Of a DNA stretch of 64,000 nucleotides, positions 8,971 through 51,883 are shown piece after piece; the stretch's first letter is position 1, and every line of letters begins with the position of its first letter. The position numbers and the translations under genes are program-made. The notes below the pieces were generated by a model. It was not told the origin of the DNA and did no database searches. It worked only from the letters and a program-made list of their open reading frames with translations. The stretch comes from a virus, in the IMG/VR virus record IMGVR_UViG_3300026571_000427, positions 1 through 64,000 of that record. One strand, given 5' to 3'.

Positions 8971-9010
8971 ACCCAAAAAAAACAAACACTTAGTAAAAAG
9001 GTAAAAGCAA

Positions 9011-10456
9011 ATGTTCCATTCCGAGCATCTGCAGGAAAAGTGGGCACCACTCTTAGACTATCAGGGTCTTGATCCAATCAGAGATTCTCATCGTAGAGCT
9101 GTAACCGCTGTCCTGCTCGAAAACCAAGAAAAATTCCTAAGAGAGGAATCAGCATTTAACACAGGTGGTATTACCAACCTGATGGAAGCACCAACCAACG
9201 CTACCGGTTCATACGGAGCTGCTGGTGCATCTGCACACGGATTCAGTGGCGGTGCTGCTGCTGGTGGTCCTACCGCAGGTTTCGATCCAGTTCTGATTTC
9301 ACTCATTCGTCGTTCAATGCCTAACCTGGTCGCTTATGACCTCGCTGGCGTTCAACCAATGAGCGGTCCTACTGGTCTTATCTTCGCAATGCGTTCACGC
9401 TACACTAACCAGAGTGGCTCTGAAACCTTCTATGATGAAGTAGATACTGGATTCTCCGGAAACAATTCAGCATTCGATGCTACCGGTGGATTCAGCGATG
9501 TTGCCGCTGGTATGGGTACAACGACTCAGAAGGGTTCGAACCCATCTGTTCTCAACCCAGTTAGCAGTGCAACCACTTCTGCTTATAATGTCGGTCAAGG
9601 AATGCGTACTAATGACGCAGAAGCCCTTGGCGACGGAGTAGATGGTGATCACTTCAATCAGATGGCTTTCTCAATCGAGAAGGTCACTGTTACTGCTAAG
9701 AGCCGCGCTCTGAAAGCAGAGTACAGCCTTGAGCTTGCTCAAGACCTGAAGGCAATCCATGGTCTGAATGCTGAAGCGGAACTCGCAAATATTCTCTCAA
9801 CTGAGATTCTTGCAGAGATCAACCGCGAAGTTATTCGTACCATCTACAAGGTTGCTGAACAGGGTGCTGCACAAAACGTTGCAACCCCAGGTATCTTCGA
9901 CCTCGACATTGACTCAAATGGTCGTTGGTCCGTTGAGAAGTTCAAGGGTCTTCTATTCCAAATCGAGCGTGATGCTAACGCAATCGCACAAAGAACTCGT
10001 CGCGGAAAGGGCAACATCATCATGTGCTCTGCTGACGTTGCTTCAGCACTGACCATGGCTGGTGTTCTCGATTACACCCCTGCACTCAACGCTAACCTAA
10101 CCGTTGATGACACTGGCAATACTTTTGCTGGTACTCTAATGGGCAAGTTCCGCGTATATATTGACCCATATGCATCTAACCTGACTTCAGGTAATGAGAC
10201 TCCAGGTAACCAGTACTATGTTGTTGGTTATAAGGGTTCTTCACCTTATGATGCTGGTCTCTTCTATTGCCCATATGTTCCTCTCCAAATGGTTCGTGCC
10301 GTTGGTGAGAACAGCTTCCAGCCCAAAATTGGCTTTAAGACCCGCTACGGTCTTGTTGCTAACCCATTCGCTGAAGGCAAGAACCAGGGTCTCGGTAGTC
10401 TTACCGTTAACGCTAACCGTTACTATCGTAGAGTTGCGGTCAAAAATCTCATGTAA
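9011..10456 (+). CDS. 23: Major capsid protein gp23
   Basis: Hexameric shell subunit of the T4-like head, 481 aa (T4: 521 aa). Clear gp23 landmarks are NLVAYDLAGVQPMSGPTG, ALKAEYSLELAQDLKAIHGL and FKTRYGLVANPFAE. The maturation cut by gp21 probably follows Glu59 in NLME|APTN, matching L-x-E. Codons are visibly richer in C-ending and CGT/CTG choices than in neighbouring genes, as expected for the most abundant virion protein. A strong terminator follows. The N-arm segment GPTAGFDPV recurs in a small protein at 42380. Confidence 0.98.
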   Translation: MFHSEHLQEKWAPLLDYQGLDPIRDSHRRAVTAVLLENQEKFLREESAFNTGGITNLMEAPTNATGSYGAAGASAHGFSGGAAAGGPTAGFDPVLISLIRRSMPNLVAYDLAGVQPMSGPTGLIFAMRSRYTNQSGSETFYDEVDTGFSGNNSAFDATGGFSDVAAGMGTTTQKGSNPSVLNPVSSATTSAYNVGQGMRTNDAEALGDGVDGDHFNQMAFSIEKVTVTAKSRALKAEYSLELAQDLKAIHGLNAEAELANILSTEILAEINREVIRTIYKVAEQGAAQNVATPGIFDLDIDSNGRWSVEKFKGLLFQIERDANAIAQRTRRGKGNIIMCSADVASALTMAGVLDYTPALNANLTVDDTGNTFAGTLMGKFRVYIDPYASNLTSGNETPGNQYYVVGYKGSSPYDAGLFYCPYVPLQMVRAVGENSFQPKIGFKTRYGLVANPFAEGKNQGLGSLTVNANRYYRRVAVKNLM

Positions 10457-10477
10457 ATCTCATATGGAGATTACTTG

Positions 10478-10505
10478 GAGGACCTCAAAAAGGTCCTCTT
10501 TTTTT
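10478..10505 (+). terminator. Rho-independent terminator after gp23
   Basis: GAGGACCT pairs perfectly with AGGTCCTC around CAAAA and is followed by a run of Ts. The late promoter TATAAATA begins in the end of the T-run. Confidence 0.9.
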
Positions 10506-10512
10506 ATAAATA
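10505..10512 (+). promoter_or_regulatory. Late promoter box TATAAATA
   Basis: Exact consensus 24 bases before the GIY-YIG gene at 10536, directly after the gp23 terminator. Confidence 0.65.
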
Positions 10513-10535
10513 CTATAGTTAAAAACTTCCGTGAT

Positions 10536-11012
10536 ATGTTTTATATTTACAAATCAACTAATAAAATTAATAATAAATTTTATATAGGTAGATGTAAAGG
10601 TCCTATTGAAAATAGAGAATATAAACACTGGTGGTATGCTTTTAATAAAAATAGTAATGCACCATTTCCAAATGCTTTACGTAAATATGGAAGAGATAAC
10701 TTTACATGGGAAATAATAGAACAAACTGAAGAATATAATAATGGAGAAAGAGAAATTTATTGGATAGATAAACTAAAACCACAGTATAATGCCACTTTAG
10801 GAGGAGACGGAGGAACTCTTGGTCGTTCGTGCCCAGAGCATGTAAAAGAAGCGACAAGACAATCAAGAATTGTATCAGTCAAAGATAAAAAAACTGAAAA
10901 AGTTTATTCGTCTATGAAAGAAGCAAGGAAAGATACTGGAGTATTGGAAAGTAGTATAAGCAGGTCTATAAAATATAATGGTCCTGGCAGTAGATGGGAA
11001 AGAGTTATCTAA
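10536..11012 (+). CDS. GIY-YIG homing endonuclease (Seg-like)
   Basis: 158-aa freestanding homing nuclease. The N-terminal catalytic motif is MFYIYKSTN...FYIGRC, followed by the helix KYGRDNFTWEIIE and YWIDKLKPQYN with the conserved Glu and Asn region. The C-terminal half (SVKDKKTEKVYSSMKEARKD) looks like a NUMOD-type DNA-binding helix-turn-helix. The frame stays open upstream through the end of gp23, but this ATG fits the family N-terminus and the upstream late promoter. The gene separates gp23 from gp3, a typical homing insertion. Confidence 0.88.
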   Translation: MFYIYKSTNKINNKFYIGRCKGPIENREYKHWWYAFNKNSNAPFPNALRKYGRDNFTWEIIEQTEEYNNGEREIYWIDKLKPQYNATLGGDGGTLGRSCPEHVKEATRQSRIVSVKDKKTEKVYSSMKEARKDTGVLESSISRSIKYNGPGSRWERVI

Positions 11013-11028
11013 ATATTTAAAAAATACC

Positions 11029-11580
11029 ATGACGATTGGACAACCAGAGAATAGGAATTTTCTATCTCCAACAGGATTTAAATTTACGTTAAAGAGAACT
11101 CCGAAAGTTGCTTTCTTCTGCAATTCAGCAAATATTCCAGAAATAACTCTTGGTCTTGCATCTCAACCATCGTATCTAAAAGATATTGATGTCCCAGGAG
11201 ATAAAATTGTATTTGGAGATTTGACTCTTAGATTTCTTGTAGATGAAGATCTACAAAACTATATGGAAATTCAAAATTGGATGAGGGGTCTTGGGTATCC
11301 AGAAAGTTTGGAACAAATTTACGATTTCCAAGAAACCGGATTCATAAATCCAAAGATTGAATCCCAGAAACAAATGGGATTATATTCCGATGGAACTTTA
11401 CAAGTACTGACAAGTTCATCAATTCCAAATTTTCAAATTACATTTAAAGATTTATTTCCATACTCATTAGGAACTTTAAGTTTTGATGCAACACAAACTG
11501 ATGTACAATACTTTACAGCAGACGTATCTTTCAAGTATACTATTTACAATATAGTAGATCTTGGTGGAAATCCCTTATGA
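11029..11580 (+). CDS. 3: Tail completion and sheath stabiliser protein gp3
   Basis: 183 aa (T4: 176 aa). T4 gp3 caps the head-proximal end of the tail tube. The sequence has a tube-like beta pattern (FKFTLKRTPKVAFFCNSANI, FLVDEDLQNYMEIQNWM). The frame opens further upstream inside the nuclease gene, but the ATG at 11029 falls after the nuclease stop and fits the family N-terminus. It overlaps uvsY by 4 bases. The order gp23-gp3-uvsY-uvsW is typical of cyanophages. Confidence 0.85.
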   Translation: MTIGQPENRNFLSPTGFKFTLKRTPKVAFFCNSANIPEITLGLASQPSYLKDIDVPGDKIVFGDLTLRFLVDEDLQNYMEIQNWMRGLGYPESLEQIYDFQETGFINPKIESQKQMGLYSDGTLQVLTSSSIPNFQITFKDLFPYSLGTLSFDATQTDVQYFTADVSFKYTIYNIVDLGGNPL

Positions 11581-12014
11581 GTTTTGATCTGGATATGATT
11601 CAAAAGATGTGGGAGCAGGACTCCAAAATTGATATGGATAATTTGCACACAGAGTCCACAAATATTCCAGTTCTTCATGCAAAATATTTTGATTTATACA
11701 ATACAATATTTCTTTTAAGAAAAAAAGCAGAGCAACAGAAAAGAAATATTCGTCACGAAAGATATGAATACTATTCTGGAAAATCAGATCCAGAGGTATA
11801 TGTAGAAAATCCATTCCCCAAAAAGATTCGTGATAAAGACACAATGCAAAAGTATCTTGATGCTGATGAAAAACTTTCGACAGTATGCCTGAAGATTGAT
11901 TACTACGATACAATGTTGACTTATATTGAAAGTATTCTAAAGATGATTCAAAATAGAACTTATCAAATTAAAAATGCAATTGAATTTATGAGATTTAACG
12001 CTGGACTTGGGTAA
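11577..12014 (+). CDS. uvsY: Recombination mediator UvsY
   Basis: Loads the UvsX recombinase onto single-stranded DNA coated with gp32; 145 aa (T4: 137 aa). The family pattern is visible in IPVLHAKYFDLYNTIFLL near residue 30 and in the C-terminal amphipathic helix MIQNRTYQIKNAIEFMRFN. It overlaps gp3 by an ATGA junction, and uvsW follows. Its partner UvsX is at 32079. Confidence 0.92.
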   Translation: MSFDLDMIQKMWEQDSKIDMDNLHTESTNIPVLHAKYFDLYNTIFLLRKKAEQQKRNIRHERYEYYSGKSDPEVYVENPFPKKIRDKDTMQKYLDADEKLSTVCLKIDYYDTMLTYIESILKMIQNRTYQIKNAIEFMRFNAGLG

Positions 12015-12021
12015 ATAAATA
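12014..12021 (+). promoter_or_regulatory. Late-type promoter box before uvsW
   Basis: AATAAATA overlaps the uvsY stop region, 21 bases before the uvsW ATG. An RNA starting about 7 bases downstream would begin inside the left arm of the hairpin at 12024-12044. Confidence 0.5.
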
Positions 12022-12023
12022 AT

Positions 12024-12044
12024 CATAGCAATATTAATGCTATG
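12024..12044 (+). promoter_or_regulatory. Hairpin covering the uvsW start codon
   Basis: CATAGCA pairs perfectly with TGCTATG around a 7-base loop, and the ATG of uvsW forms the end of the right arm. In read-through RNA the start codon would be paired. RNA from the late box just upstream would lack part of the left arm. Confidence 0.6.
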
Positions 12045-13508
12045 AGTGATGTAATCATTGAAAAGAAAAATGAGGTTTACATTAAGCTACATTGTGAACC
12101 TCATATTTTGTACGAACTTCAACCATATTTTACTTTTGAAGTTGAATCTGCGAAATTCATGTCCCAGTATAGAAGCAGGCACTGGGACGGCAAGATTCGA
12201 TTGTTAAGTACTCATACTGGAGAAATATATGCTGGTTTGTTAGATAAAATTATCGACAAACTAAAACTGCATAATTACACCTATGAGTTTAAAGAAAATA
12301 AATTCTATGGATTGCCTTTTGAAATTAACGAGGGCATCTCATATGAAGGTGTAAAAGATTATATGCAATCTATTTGTTCTCATTCTCCAAGAGACTATCA
12401 AATAGAGGGAGTATACGATGCTCTAAGGCATAATAGAAAATTGCTGATATCACCCACAGCCTCAGGTAAATCCTTAATGATTTATTCCCTTGTAAGGTAT
12501 TATGTAGATAAAGGACAAAAAATTCTTTTAGTTGTTCCAACGACATCTCTTGTAGAGCAGATGTACAAGGATTTTGAAGACTATGGTTGGGATGCTGAGT
12601 CATACTGTCACAAAATTTATTCTGGTAGAGAGAAGACAAATAAACATTCTGTCACTATCACTACCTGGCAATCTATCTATAAACTAGAACGCCCATTCTT
12701 TGAAGATTATGGCGTAATCATAGGGGATGAAGCTCACTTATTCAAGAGCAAATCTCTTGTCGATATCATGACCAAACTTCATCATGCAAAATATCGTTTT
12801 GGTTTTACTGGAACTCTTGATGGAACTCAAACACACAAATGGGTTCTTGAAGGACTTTTTGGACCTTCATATAAAGTTACTAGAACTTATGAGTTGATGC
12901 AGCAAGGACATATTTCTCAATTAGATATTCGCTGCCTTGTCCTCAAACATGCTCCACAAAAATTTGAAACCTATGAAGATGAGATACAATACTTAATATC
13001 TCATGACCAAAGAAATAAATTTATTACAAATCTTTCTTTAGATTTAAAAGGTAACACTCTTGTTCTGTTTTCACGAGTAGAAGCTCATGGTGCAATTTTA
13101 TACGAAAAGATAAATACTAACAAGCGAAATGATCGTAAAGTATTTTTTATTCATGGTGGAGTTGATACTGAAGAGAGGGAATTAGTTAGGGAAATTACAG
13201 AAAGAGAAGACAATGCCATAATCGTAGCATCCTACGGAACTTTCAGTACTGGCATCAATATCAAAAATCTTCATAATGTTATATTTGCCTCTCCAAGCAA
13301 ATCAAGAATTAGAAATTTACAAAGTATTGGAAGAGTACTAAGAAAAGGAACTAACAAAACAAAAGCAATACTTTATGATATTTCAGACGACTGCACTTAT
13401 AACTCAAGAAAAAATTATACTCTGAATCACCTCATTGAAAGAATTAAAATCTATAATGAAGAAAATTTTAACTATGAAATAATCACCATACAACTTAAGA
13501 AAAAATGA
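12042..13508 (+). CDS. uvsW: RNA-DNA and DNA helicase UvsW
   Basis: Superfamily 2 helicase that unwinds R-loops and branched DNA and switches origin-dependent to recombination-dependent replication in T4. 488 aa (T4: about 500 aa). Motifs: Walker A SPTASGKS near residue 140, GDEAHLF for motif II, FGFTGTL for motif III, and SIGRVLRKG for motif VI. An N-terminal domain containing SRHWDGKIRLL binds nucleic acid in this family. The start codon sits in a hairpin. It overlaps the next gene by 4 bases. Confidence 0.95.
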   Translation: MSDVIIEKKNEVYIKLHCEPHILYELQPYFTFEVESAKFMSQYRSRHWDGKIRLLSTHTGEIYAGLLDKIIDKLKLHNYTYEFKENKFYGLPFEINEGISYEGVKDYMQSICSHSPRDYQIEGVYDALRHNRKLLISPTASGKSLMIYSLVRYYVDKGQKILLVVPTTSLVEQMYKDFEDYGWDAESYCHKIYSGREKTNKHSVTITTWQSIYKLERPFFEDYGVIIGDEAHLFKSKSLVDIMTKLHHAKYRFGFTGTLDGTQTHKWVLEGLFGPSYKVTRTYELMQQGHISQLDIRCLVLKHAPQKFETYEDEIQYLISHDQRNKFITNLSLDLKGNTLVLFSRVEAHGAILYEKINTNKRNDRKVFFIHGGVDTEERELVREITEREDNAIIVASYGTFSTGINIKNLHNVIFASPSKSRIRNLQSIGRVLRKGTNKTKAILYDISDDCTYNSRKNYTLNHLIERIKIYNEENFNYEIITIQLKKK

Positions 13509-13897
13509 TAGAAGATGATTTTTACTGCACAATCAAGTTAAAAACAGGCGAAGAAATCTTTGCCAAAGTAGCAGCTTCCGAAGAAGAAGATAGGACAATA
13601 TTAATCATTTCAAATCCAATTACTATTTGTGAAATCAAAAATAGAACTAGTGTTGTTGGATATAAACTGGAACCATGGTTGAAAACAACCAAAGAAGATA
13701 TGTTTATAATTAATCTAGAAGACGTACTCACTCTTTCAGAATCTTCTGATATTGAAATGATCATGATGTACCAGTCCTATGTCCGCCACTCAAGTAAGGA
13801 TGGTACGAATCAATCAAAACTTAATCGTAGAATGGGATACCTTGCCAATGTCAACGATGCTAAAGAGATATTAGAGAAGCTTTATAAAAATAGCTAA
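13505..13897 (+). CDS. Small Sm-like fold protein (first of four)
   Basis: 130 aa of unknown function. The first 80 residues follow the pattern IKLKTGEEIFAKV...ISNPI...FIINLEDVLTL, like the Sm1/Sm2 strand pattern of LSm proteins; Sm-like proteins of probable cyanophage origin are known. A C-terminal helix follows. Three shorter relatives with the [KR]-x-G-E-E-[IL]-I-A-[ED]-V strand lie at 24936, 28987 and 29321, all beside replication genes. RNA or protein binding is possible. It overlaps uvsW by 4 bases. Confidence 0.75.
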   Translation: MIEDDFYCTIKLKTGEEIFAKVAASEEEDRTILIISNPITICEIKNRTSVVGYKLEPWLKTTKEDMFIINLEDVLTLSESSDIEMIMMYQSYVRHSSKDGTNQSKLNRRMGYLANVNDAKEILEKLYKNS

Positions 13898-13948
13898 GAT
13901 ATAACTTATCAACCCCGACAAAGGTTATTGTACAGGTATTTGGATACC

Positions 13949-13977
13949 TTGTCAAGCATTTGCATAAATGGTATAAT
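13949..13977 (+). promoter_or_regulatory. Host sigma70-type promoter for gp55
   Basis: TTGTCA, a 17-base spacer and TATAAT, 26 bases before the first gp55 ATG. A perfect inverted repeat AGGTAT-TTGG-ATACCT (13934-13949) abuts the -35 box and may be an operator or stem-loop. Confidence 0.75.
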
Positions 13978-14002
13978 CTATACATAATAATGATAAAAAC
14001 TT

Positions 14003-14500
14003 ATGATAACCACAGCAGTTATGACCAAGAGAAAGAGGTCAGAGCATTACGTAAACAACAAAGAGTTTCTTGCTGCTCTCATTAAGTATAGAGAAGATAA
14101 AGAAATCGCTCTTCTACAGAATAAACCAAAACCTCCCATTCCTCGCTACATTGGAGAGTGTTTTCTGAAGATCGCTAATCATCTTTCCTTCAAACCAAAC
14201 TTCGTGAACTACATGTTCAAGGAAGATATGATTTCTGACGGTATTGAAAACTGCGTTCAGTACATTCACAATTTCAATCCAGAGAAATCACAAAATCCTT
14301 TTGCATACTTTACTCAAATCATTCACTACGCATTCCTTCGCCGTATTCAAAGAGAGAAGCGTCAACTGGAAATCAAAAACAAAATCCTTGAACGCTCTGG
14401 ATTTTCTGAAGTGTTTGCTGACGACAACACTATTGACGGCGGGAACTATTCCGATTATAATAGCATCAAAGATGGTGTCCACTCCAAACTTCGTTATTGA
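14003..14500 (+). CDS. 55: Late transcription sigma factor gp55
   Basis: Phage sigma factor that directs host RNA polymerase to TATAAATA late promoters; 165 aa (T4: 185 aa). Recognisable segments are HYVNNKEFLAALIKY near the start and IENCVQYIHNFNPEKSQNPFAYFTQ, the sigma region-2-like core. An internal ATG six codons in (MTKRKRSEHY) is an alternative start closer to T4 gp55. The gene has its own host-type promoter, consistent with early or middle expression. The many ATAAATA boxes in this window are its probable targets. Confidence 0.93.
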   Translation: MITTAVMTKRKRSEHYVNNKEFLAALIKYREDKEIALLQNKPKPPIPRYIGECFLKIANHLSFKPNFVNYMFKEDMISDGIENCVQYIHNFNPEKSQNPFAYFTQIIHYAFLRRIQREKRQLEIKNKILERSGFSEVFADDNTIDGGNYSDYNSIKDGVHSKLRY

Positions 14501-15535
14501 ATGAAAGTCGCTATTATTACAGACACTCACTACGGTGCAAGAAAAGGTTCAAAACTTTTTCATGATTATTTTGAACTTTTTTATAAGAATGTGTTTTTCC
14601 CGACGCTGGAACAGTACGGGATTGATACAGTTATTCACATGGGTGATGCTTTTGATAGTAGAAAGTCAATTGATTATCAAAGTTTAGAGTGGGCAAAACG
14701 AGTAGTATTTGAACCACTCAAAAAATATCATGTCCATATGATTGTTGGTAATCATGATAGTTATTATAAAAATACCAACAACACAAATTCACCTCAACTT
14801 CTGTTGAAAGATTATCCTAATATTCAAACATATTCTTCACCAACAGAAATCAAGGTTGGAAATCTTGATGTTCTTCTCCTTCCTTGGATTTGCGTGGAAA
14901 ATGAAGAGCAGTCACTTAAAATGATTAAGAAAACAAAGGCAAAAGTTGCCATGGGTCATCTTGAGTTCCAAGGTTTTCGTGTAAACCGTCAAATCATTAT
15001 GGAACATGGACTGGAAGCAAATCTTTTTAAGGACTTCTCTAAGGTATTTTCTGGTCATTACCACACTCGTTCTGATAATGGAACTGTTTTCTACTTGGGA
15101 AATCCTTATGAGATTTACTGGACAGATGTAAATGATACTCGTGGATTTACTATCTTTGATACAGAAACTTTAGAACATACTCCAATCAATAATCCTTATA
15201 AGATGTTTCATAACATTTATTATGAGGATACAAATTATCAAACATTTGATACTCGCGAGTATGAAAATAAGATTGTAAAAGTTGTTGTTCGTAAGAAATC
15301 AGACACTAAGAAGTTTGAAAAATTTGTTGATAAACTTTACGCTTCAAATATTGCAGAACTCAAAATTATTGAGAACTTCGATATTCAGGAACCTGTAGAG
15401 TTTGAAGCATTCGAAAGTGAAGACACTATCTCCATTCTGAATAGATATATTCAGGAGGCTGAAATAAATCTTGATAAATCAATCATTCAAAAAATGATGC
15501 AAGAAATATATCAAGAGGCTTGTGAGTTAATTTAA
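14501..15535 (+). CDS. 47: Recombination nuclease subunit gp47 (Mre11-like)
   Basis: Catalytic subunit of the gp46/gp47 complex that resects DNA ends and degrades host DNA. 344 aa (T4: 339 aa). Metallophosphoesterase motifs in order: TDTHYG, HMGDAFDSR, VGNHDSYYK, MGHLEF and SGHYHTR, supplying the two-metal ligands. It begins at the base after the gp55 stop and is separated from gp46 only by a small gene. Confidence 0.96.
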   Translation: MKVAIITDTHYGARKGSKLFHDYFELFYKNVFFPTLEQYGIDTVIHMGDAFDSRKSIDYQSLEWAKRVVFEPLKKYHVHMIVGNHDSYYKNTNNTNSPQLLLKDYPNIQTYSSPTEIKVGNLDVLLLPWICVENEEQSLKMIKKTKAKVAMGHLEFQGFRVNRQIIMEHGLEANLFKDFSKVFSGHYHTRSDNGTVFYLGNPYEIYWTDVNDTRGFTIFDTETLEHTPINNPYKMFHNIYYEDTNYQTFDTREYENKIVKVVVRKKSDTKKFEKFVDKLYASNIAELKIIENFDIQEPVEFEAFESEDTISILNRYIQEAEINLDKSIIQKMMQEIYQEACELI

Positions 15536-27703: not shown

Positions 27704-27781
27704 TTGTTTGTGGTTATTCAAGCAAAGGATTGGGGGCAGAAATGCTCCTTTTCTTTTATAAATAACTATAACCACAAACAA
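27704..27781 (+). promoter_or_regulatory. 14-base inverted repeat around a late promoter
   Basis: TTGTTTGTGGTTAT (27704-27717) and ATAACCACAAACAA (27768-27781) are perfect complements. Between them lie a terminator-like stem (27725-27755) and the late box TATAAATA (27757-27764). The right arm ends 5 bases before the ATG of the GIY-YIG gene, so read-through RNA would hide the start region. RNA from the late box would start within the right arm. Confidence 0.7.
27757..27764 (+). promoter_or_regulatory. Late promoter box inside the inverted repeat
   Basis: Exact TATAAATA, 22 bases before the ATG at 27787. Confidence 0.65.
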
Positions 27782-27786
27782 AGCAG

Positions 27787-28194
27787 ATGGAAAGGTATTA
27801 CGTTTACGCTTATTTGCGTGAAGATAGATATTCTCCTTACTACATTGGGAAAGGTTCTGGATTTAGAGACACAAATAAAAGAAAGTTAGGATTAGCTCAA
27901 CGACCTCCTGATAGAGATAGAATAGTAAGAATAAAAGAAAACTTAACAGAACAAGAAGCATTATCTTTGGAAATAGCACTCATAAAGTTTTGGGGTAAAA
28001 AAGATAGTGGTGGTGTATTGGTTAATAAAACCGATGGTGGTGAAGGTACTTCTGGATCAAAAAGAGATAAAGCGTCAAGACAGAAAACCGGTATGTCTAT
28101 GAAGGGGAAACCTGCTTGGAACAAAGGTATGAAGTTTCCTCCTGGAACATTTGGAAGACCAGTTAAGAATAATGTAGTAGAAACCACACTTTAA
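27787..28194 (+). CDS. GIY-YIG endonuclease
   Basis: 135 aa. YYVYAYLREDRYSPYYIGKGSGFR holds the GIY-YIG motif and the conserved Arg, and ALSLEIALIKFWG supplies the conserved Glu helix. The basic tail TGMSMKGKPAWNKGMKF is a NUMOD3-like DNA-binding segment typical of homing nucleases. It lies alone between two late genes with its own late promoter and a sequestering inverted repeat. Likely a freestanding homing endonuclease. Confidence 0.85.
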   Translation: MERYYVYAYLREDRYSPYYIGKGSGFRDTNKRKLGLAQRPPDRDRIVRIKENLTEQEALSLEIALIKFWGKKDSGGVLVNKTDGGEGTSGSKRDKASRQKTGMSMKGKPAWNKGMKFPPGTFGRPVKNNVVETTL

Positions 28195-49467: not shown

Positions 49468-49507
49468 ATAACTTTACCTGACTTGCTGACACTTTTCAGG
49501 TGGGATT

Positions 49508-49532: not shown

Positions 49533-49540
49533 TATAAATA
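49533..49540 (+). promoter_or_regulatory. Late promoter box TATAAATA
   Basis: Exact consensus, 24 bases before the ATG at 49565, inside the 11-base inverted repeat. Confidence 0.68.
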
Positions 49541-49564
49541 GTAATGTCAGCAAGTTAGAGTAGT

Positions 49565-50224
49565 ATGAAACACTTTTATGTGTATTATTCCTATGAGGAA
49601 TATGGAAGAGGTTATATTGGAAAAAGAGAATGTAAATGTCTTCCAGAAGAAGATGTAAGTTATTTTGGAAGTTTCAAAGATAAAACTTTCAATCCAACTC
49701 AAAAAATAATATTAGAAACTTTTGGGAGTGTTGAAGAAGCACTTGAAGCAGAATGTGCTCTCCACGATTTTTATGAAGTAGATAAAAATCCACACTTTGC
49801 TAATAGGGCAAAACAAACTTCTACTGGATTTTATTGTAATAAAGGTGCTGGTGAAGAAGCAAACAAGAAAAGAAGTGAGTTGATGAAAACAGAATACAAT
49901 CCTATGAGTAATCCAAAACTCAAAGAGAAAGCAAGAAAAAACTTGATTAGAACTTTGAGTAATCCAGAAATGAGAAAACTAAAAAGTAGAGTTGGAAAGA
50001 AAGCACACAATCGTCCAGAAGTAGTTGAGAACCATAGACAGGCAGCACTCAAATCTCATCAAAATCCAGAAACAAAAAGAAAACATATTGAGGCAAAACT
50101 TGGTGAGAAAAATCCTTGTTATGGTAAAAAGTGGATTACAAATGGAAATGAAAACAAATACATAAACTCTATTGATGAAGTTCCAAGTGGTTTTTGGTAT
50201 GGTAGAGTTTTCATAAATACCTAA
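49565..50224 (+). CDS. GIY-YIG homing endonuclease with NUMOD repeats
   Basis: 219 aa. FYVYYSYEEYGRGYIGKREC is the catalytic motif, and EEALEAECALHDFYEV carries the conserved Glu. Two NUMOD3-like units follow (NPMSNPKLKEKARKNL and a second basic repeat), and the C-terminus KKWITNGNENKYINS...GFWYGR is a DNA-binding motif usual in phage homing nucleases. Expression appears limited to the late phase by the inverted repeat upstream. Confidence 0.87.
   Translation: MKHFYVYYSYEEYGRGYIGKRECKCLPEEDVSYFGSFKDKTFNPTQKIILETFGSVEEALEAECALHDFYEVDKNPHFANRAKQTSTGFYCNKGAGEEANKKRSELMKTEYNPMSNPKLKEKARKNLIRTLSNPEMRKLKSRVGKKAHNRPEVVENHRQAALKSHQNPETKRKHIEAKLGEKNPCYGKKWITNGNENKYINSIDEVPSGFWYGRVFINT
50212..50219 (+). 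promoter_or_regulatory. Late promoter box
   Basis: CATAAATA overlapping the end of the nuclease gene, followed by CCTAAAAAGTACTTA, 21 bases before the next ATG. Confidence 0.6.
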
Positions 50225-51478: not shown

Positions 51479-51883
51479 ATGTTCAATTTTAACTTCGGAA
51501 AGAAGAAACCTGATAAGAAGCAGATAATCCTTATAAGCGTCATACTCAGTGGTATCGTAGCAACCCTCTCCCAATGCACAGGAGCGCCTCAGGAGCGCCT
51601 CTGGGACCTTCTAGACGAGGTTCAGAGATCTCTGTTCCCAGGCACCGTAATCAACGATGTGCTGCTTCAGGACCCTGCTGTGGTTGGTAGGAGAGTTGAG
51701 CGTGATGTGGATAAAGCAATTCGTGATTATGAGGACTTGACAAGAGACTCAGATCCACCTAGAGTACCTTTGCCCAGGTTGATTGAGAAAGCTCCAGATA
51801 ACTCTGAGGCTCAACGATTACTTGGTGGGGAGATGAGACTATGCGCTCCATGGGTTGACAGTTGCCCCAAAGAACCTATATAA
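51479..51883 (+). CDS. Membrane-anchored protein, lipobox-like
   Basis: 134 aa. A basic N-terminus (GKKKPDKK) is followed by hydrophobic IILISVILSGIVATLSQC (about 15-32), ending at a Cys that could be lipidated (LSQC). A soluble, Pro/Arg-rich domain (about 40-134) follows. It might be an inner-membrane lipoprotein facing the periplasm, possibly with a role in lysis or exclusion; no family assigned. Its ATG directly follows the terminator T-run. Confidence 0.7.
   Translation: MFNFNFGKKKPDKKQIILISVILSGIVATLSQCTGAPQERLWDLLDEVQRSLFPGTVINDVLLQDPAVVGRRVERDVDKAIRDYEDLTRDSDPPRVPLPRLIEKAPDNSEAQRLLGGEMRLCAPWVDSCPKEPI

Follow-up and report, generated by a model that had tools for sequence, protein, structure and literature searches.

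The locus considered here raises the question of why the start codon of a recombination helicase gene should lie inside an inverted repeat that directly follows a phage late promoter box, and whether this arrangement decides which RNAs are translated. The window, that is, the whole stretch of DNA that was analysed, covers 64 kb of an IMG/VR virus record that is 90 kb long, and its gene content and nearest relatives indicate that the source is a T4-like cyanomyovirus. The gene order in this part of the window is gp23-like, GIY-YIG-like ORF, gp3-like, uvsY, uvsW, Sm-like/'methylamine utilization', gp55 and gp47-like, all on the plus strand, with the gp23-like call based on synteny with S-SM2 and P-SSM2 and the GIY-YIG-like ORF named from its own sequence. 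The assignment of the helicase gene to uvsW in the sequence-only reading is borne out by a match to Pfam UvsW_N (4.5e-12): the 488-amino-acid product (12042 to 13508, plus strand) also contains ResIII and Helicase_C domains, belongs to PHROG 16 (DNA helicase) and is 72% identical to P-SSM2 UvsW. Its ATG occupies positions 12042 to 12044 on the plus strand, and its N-terminus aligns with those of relatives. Upstream lies the co-directional uvsY (11577 to 12014, plus strand; Pfam UvsY, 1.3e-42), a possible source of read-through RNA, whose stop codon is found at 12012 to 12014.

The late promoter box AATAAATA (12014 to 12021, plus strand) shares the last base of that stop codon and corresponds to the cyanophage late promoter consensus NATAAATA (PMC2984593). 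Since T4 late boxes span −13 to −6 (PMC1524935), the same spacing applied here, with the box ending 6 nt upstream, predicts a late transcription start at A12027 on the plus strand. Of 124 distinct uvsW leaders, 116 have an A at nucleotide 6 after the box, a conservation that is evidence, though not proof, for the assumed start. Among the uvsW loci with enough upstream sequence, 154 of 171 carry a late box, which in 144 of these 154 is placed 20 to 23 nt before the start codon. Another late box at 10505, further upstream, would read through gp3, uvsY and uvsW. Across the whole window, all 33 matches to ATAAATA are on the plus strand, with about 21 expected over both strands together.

With respect to the hairpin, the left arm TCATAGCA (12023 to 12030) and the right arm TGCTATGA (12038 to 12045), both on the plus strand, form a perfect 8-bp inverted repeat around a 7-nt loop, ATATTAA (12031 to 12037, plus strand), that varies among relatives. 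The pairing of CATAGCA (12024 to 12030) with TGCTATG (12038 to 12044), including the ATG, is just as it had been described, and the repeat is in fact longer by one pair (T12023-A12045). Within it, the start-codon bases A, U and G pair with 12026, 12025 and 12024, respectively, which are the three positions immediately 5' of the predicted start and would be the last three left untranscribed. The leader folds at −9.1 kcal/mol, compared with a mean of −2.3 for shuffled sequences (z about −4; none of 200 shuffles reached so low a value), and in a 47-nt context the fold has z = −2.5. The hairpin is thus confirmed as an observation, and among some 20 late-box leaders in the window, that of uvsW alone encloses its start codon in a strong hairpin internal to the leader; a terminator-like GC hairpin occurs in the leader at 51479, where the start is doubtful. 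Late-box leaders elsewhere in the window and in P-SSM2 are mostly without structure.

The predicted cost of opening the AUG is about 4 to 7 kcal/mol in read-through RNA and about 0 in late RNA. Computed by RNA 5' end, it is 6.9 kcal/mol for RNAs beginning at 12022 or 12023, 5.2 at 12024, 2.3 at 12025, 1.1 at 12026 and 0.0 at 12027, while an RNA beginning at the uvsY start gives 5.7 kcal/mol. In the clade to which the window belongs, mean costs for uvsW are 6.3 for long RNA versus 0.6 for late RNA, and the window's remaining late genes give 1.1 versus 0.9. For the window alone, the opening energy of −8 to +3, a noisy measure, did not differ significantly from that obtained with shuffled upstream sequence (P = 0.19); being uninformative as a single-sequence test, it was replaced by the AUG-only measure, which is borderline for the window alone (P = 0.06). 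The geometry, these energetics and the covariation described below together lend good support to the earlier proposal that late RNA would start inside the left arm and so free the AUG.

The comparative evidence is much stronger than that from the window's single sequence. We surveyed 160 uvsW loci from IMG/VR and 14 named cyanophage isolates, with S-SKS1 and AG-345-E15 added later. In the window's clade, the hairpin is kept in all 17 distinct leaders, with 98.7% of pair cells standard and five double-change cells, a covariation score that none of 500 shuffles reaches. At column pair 16/26, for instance, C-G has changed to U-A and to A-U, and compensated arms include CATAGTA/TACTATG and CATAGA/TCTATG; versions of the stem slid out of register pair at only 20 to 50%. 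Independently of this clade, the P-SSM2-like clade, whose spacing is 23, carries another stem, which stops 2 nt short of the ATG and is 91.9% paired with 17 double-change cells (0 of 500 shuffles). The arms are ATCCTA..TAGGAT just 5' of the ATG in P-SSM2 and CTTATAG..CTATGAG in S-SKS1; these and other cyanophage clades have other arm sequences at the same location. That the repeat arose by chance, as A+T-rich DNA and the lack of a hairpin in some relatives might suggest, is hardly credible given covariation in two clades that no shuffle matched and compensatory changes in independent relatives.

The same data bear on what kind of element this is. When the stem exceptions are read on the plus strand, 32 are G.U and 4 are A.C, a pattern that points to pairing in plus-strand RNA and would be expected neither from a palindromic DNA site nor from RNA of the minus strand. 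A palindromic site for a DNA-binding regulator, or an intrinsic terminator of minus-strand RNA, in which TTATTTATTT would come after the stem when read on that strand, is therefore improbable, even though a terminator scan flags 12045 to 12023 on the minus strand: the T run in question is the late box itself, pairing is kept while arm sequences differ between clades, and the window's ATAAATA matches include none on the minus strand. An intrinsic terminator on the plus strand was also considered and rejected, as no U run follows the stem and only three of its pairs are G-C. No Rfam family matched at the gathering threshold within window positions 9000 to 15000. Furthermore, the left arm starts directly 3' of the late box, and 37 hairpin loci show that the element stays at uvsW when other genes intervene between uvsY and uvsW. 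The position of the hairpin directly 3' of the uvsY stop codon could point to a 3'-end or stability element of the uvsY message, but we regard this as very improbable, because the element follows uvsW and not uvsY across those intervening genes and its position is fixed relative to the box and the start codon.

We therefore favour a cis-acting translational gate, and consider it likely that uvsW is translated from the RNA of its own late promoter only and not from read-through RNA. In RNA reading through from uvsY, TCATAGCA would pair with TGCTATGA, burying the AUG and keeping 30S subunits from starting. Late transcription of the gp55 type from the box at 12014 to 12021 would begin at about A12027 and yield an RNA without the three bases paired to the AUG, in which at most a weak 4-bp remnant would form and the AUG would be open. 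Both the start site and the repression of read-through RNA are predictions, and the mechanism appears well supported by the comparative evidence.

What the gate would be for is a separate matter. We infer as its benefit that UvsW is kept off until late infection. The reason offered by the sequence-only reading, protection of R-loop origins from early UvsW, is carried over from T4 by analogy; to our knowledge, R-loop origins have not been established in cyanophages. In T4, where UvsW unwinds origin R-loops, the need for late UvsW is documented (PMC3016281). A timing purpose is not singled out, since read-through arriving from upstream late promoters, such as the box at 10505, would be silenced by the hairpin just as well. 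The same gate could accordingly act as an insulator and not as a timer: with uvsW in a co-directional array, its dose would be tied to its own promoter and all read-through, late as well as early, would be silenced. We give this variant somewhat less than an even chance. In its favour, the box at 10505 would read through gp3, uvsY and uvsW, and an early promoter for uvsW in the window is represented only by a sigma70-like match in gp3 codons. The hexamers of this candidate promoter before uvsY (11512 to 11541) lie within conserved gp3 codons, so that the match does not count as independent evidence for early transcription across uvsW. In addition, T4 uvsW has no hairpin, and in T4, RB16, pKp20 and B614 the gene preceding uvsW (in T4, preceding the inserted segE) has the opposite orientation, and little same-strand read-through into uvsW is therefore expected there; in the non-cyanophage T4 relatives examined, this opposite-strand gene is inh or its counterpart, with segE lying between in T4. 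The location of cyanophage uvsW downstream of co-directional genes would explain why the gate is present in cyanophages. Against the insulator stand the T4 precedents e and I-TevI, which act on early or middle RNAs, and the status of uvsW as a late gene in T4 (PMC3016281).

The hairpin is not universal among cyanophages. Placing the hairpin label (threshold P > 0.5 and MFE <= −4) on a quick UvsW tree requires 25 changes, at least 14 of them forced by well-supported branches, which indicates that the trait has been both gained and lost. In the L092 and L099 groups, the box is present and the stem absent. In the eight examined isolates without a box (P-TIM68, S-PRM1, S-T4, S-ShM2, S-RIM2, S-SSM4, S-CAM1 and ACG-2014h), uvsW directly adjoins the gene before it or overlaps with it, and no such leader exists. 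In the leader of L168 (ACG-2014f), no late box can be recognised, but TAATAGG..CCTATTA forms a hairpin a short distance 5' of the start. For a clade with GTG starts, RNAalifold gave no consensus stem. Its members (L023, L026, L032, L051, L083, L085 and others) share a conserved AGATGNATGG in the 20 to 25 nt after the late box, a possible five-codon leader ORF (MNGSM and variants) that starts 2 nt after the predicted transcription start and whose TGA overlaps the GTG or TTG of uvsW. An ATG two bases past the predicted start is found in 34 of 43 leaders of this clade, and 26 of these 34 frames end at a TGA overlapping the uvsW start, an arrangement that resembles coupling by termination and reinitiation on an mRNA with almost no leader.

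On a broader and more tentative view, to which we give clearly less than an even chance, cyanomyovirus uvsW may have been selected repeatedly for uncoupling from upstream RNA. Clades would have evolved unrelated leader devices in the same 20 to 23 nt after the late box (a hairpin over the AUG, a hairpin over the ribosome-binding site, or a leader peptide AUG(N/H/Y)GA.. with UGA overlapping a GUG start), and others would have dispensed with the promoter and attached uvsW to the gene before it. On this view, late promoters would act as a switch that renders the RNA translatable and not only present.

Related designs occur elsewhere in the window. Two genes with GIY-YIG-like N-termini (27787 and 49565; PHROG 314, 'homing endonuclease') are each preceded by a long-range stem that ends 5 to 6 nt before the ATG and has a late box in its loop, as described for homing endonucleases of T4 (PMC2988022). 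In the first, a 14-bp inverted repeat TTGTTTGTGGTTAT/ATAACCACAAACAA (27704 to 27717 and 27768 to 27781) encloses a terminator-like hairpin and a late box (27757 to 27764), and the ATAACCACAAACAA arm ends 5 nt before the ATG of ORF 27787 to 28194. In the second (ORF 49565 to 50224), the arms lie at 49478 to 49493 and 49546 to 49558 and the box at 49533 to 49540, with a nested terminator-like hairpin, GGAGTGCTTCGGCACTCC, directly 5' of the box. These two designs are an apparent sign, internal to this genome, that the phage uses the late-promoter hairpin trick. Ahead of several late genes, the leaders of 27142, 35094, 36477 and 50240 share ATAAATAC.T.aaa.AGTATTTgTA.AATG, and in these leaders AAATAC, one half of the late box, is complementary to the leader's GTATTT, so that such a hairpin could form in read-through RNA but not in late RNA.

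So far, this T4 trick is known chiefly from genes for lysis, the capsid and homing endonucleases; the gate would extend it to a core recombination helicase of marine cyanobacterial viruses, an unexpected gene for it in an ecologically important virus group. This suggests that UvsW synthesis on read-through RNA must be prevented. It also means that cyanophage RNA-seq can mislead, as read-through uvsW RNA may be untranslated, and the contrasting leader architectures offer natural experiments on why UvsW timing or dose matters. We found no description of the uvsW element in cyanophages in the non-subscription literature searched.

The closest parallels are in T4, where the start regions of e, soc and 49 are sequestered in read-through RNA and an adjoining late promoter yields RNA without the 5' arm (PMC3014915), a logic proven for e and I-TevI (PMC3014915, PMC2988022). 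The uvsW leader, as computed, would likewise pair sequestration of the start region with late RNA lacking the 5' arm. The T4 genes belong to a coliphage, with experimental proof for e, whereas the window's uvsW is known from sequence and computation; here, moreover, the AUG itself is held by three pairs ending exactly at the predicted start, and no clear Shine-Dalgarno sequence is visible. In T4 I-TevI, I-TevII, I-TevIII and segB and in Aeh1 mobE, a late promoter is similarly positioned so that late RNA is free of the inhibitory structure (PMC2988022), but those hairpins guard selfish endonucleases and this one a core recombination and replication helicase. T4 uvsW itself, expressed from a late promoter according to what PMC3016281 relates of Derr and Kreuzer 1990, is orthologous and late-expressed, but it follows segE, its late-like AATAAATA lies about 94 nt ahead of the ATG, and it has no start-codon hairpin. 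An ancestral T4 origin of the hairpin was rejected, as T4, Klebsiella pKp20 and Aeromonas B614 all lack it and the RB16 hairpin differs. The uvsW leader of phage RB16 (L181) has CCTATaTAC..GTAcATAGG directly after the late box, covering an SD-like AGGG, and a similar gate may therefore exist outside cyanophages. Most likely, the cyanophage uvsW element matches the known mechanism of T4 e, soc, 49 and I-TevI, now placed on a core recombination gene.
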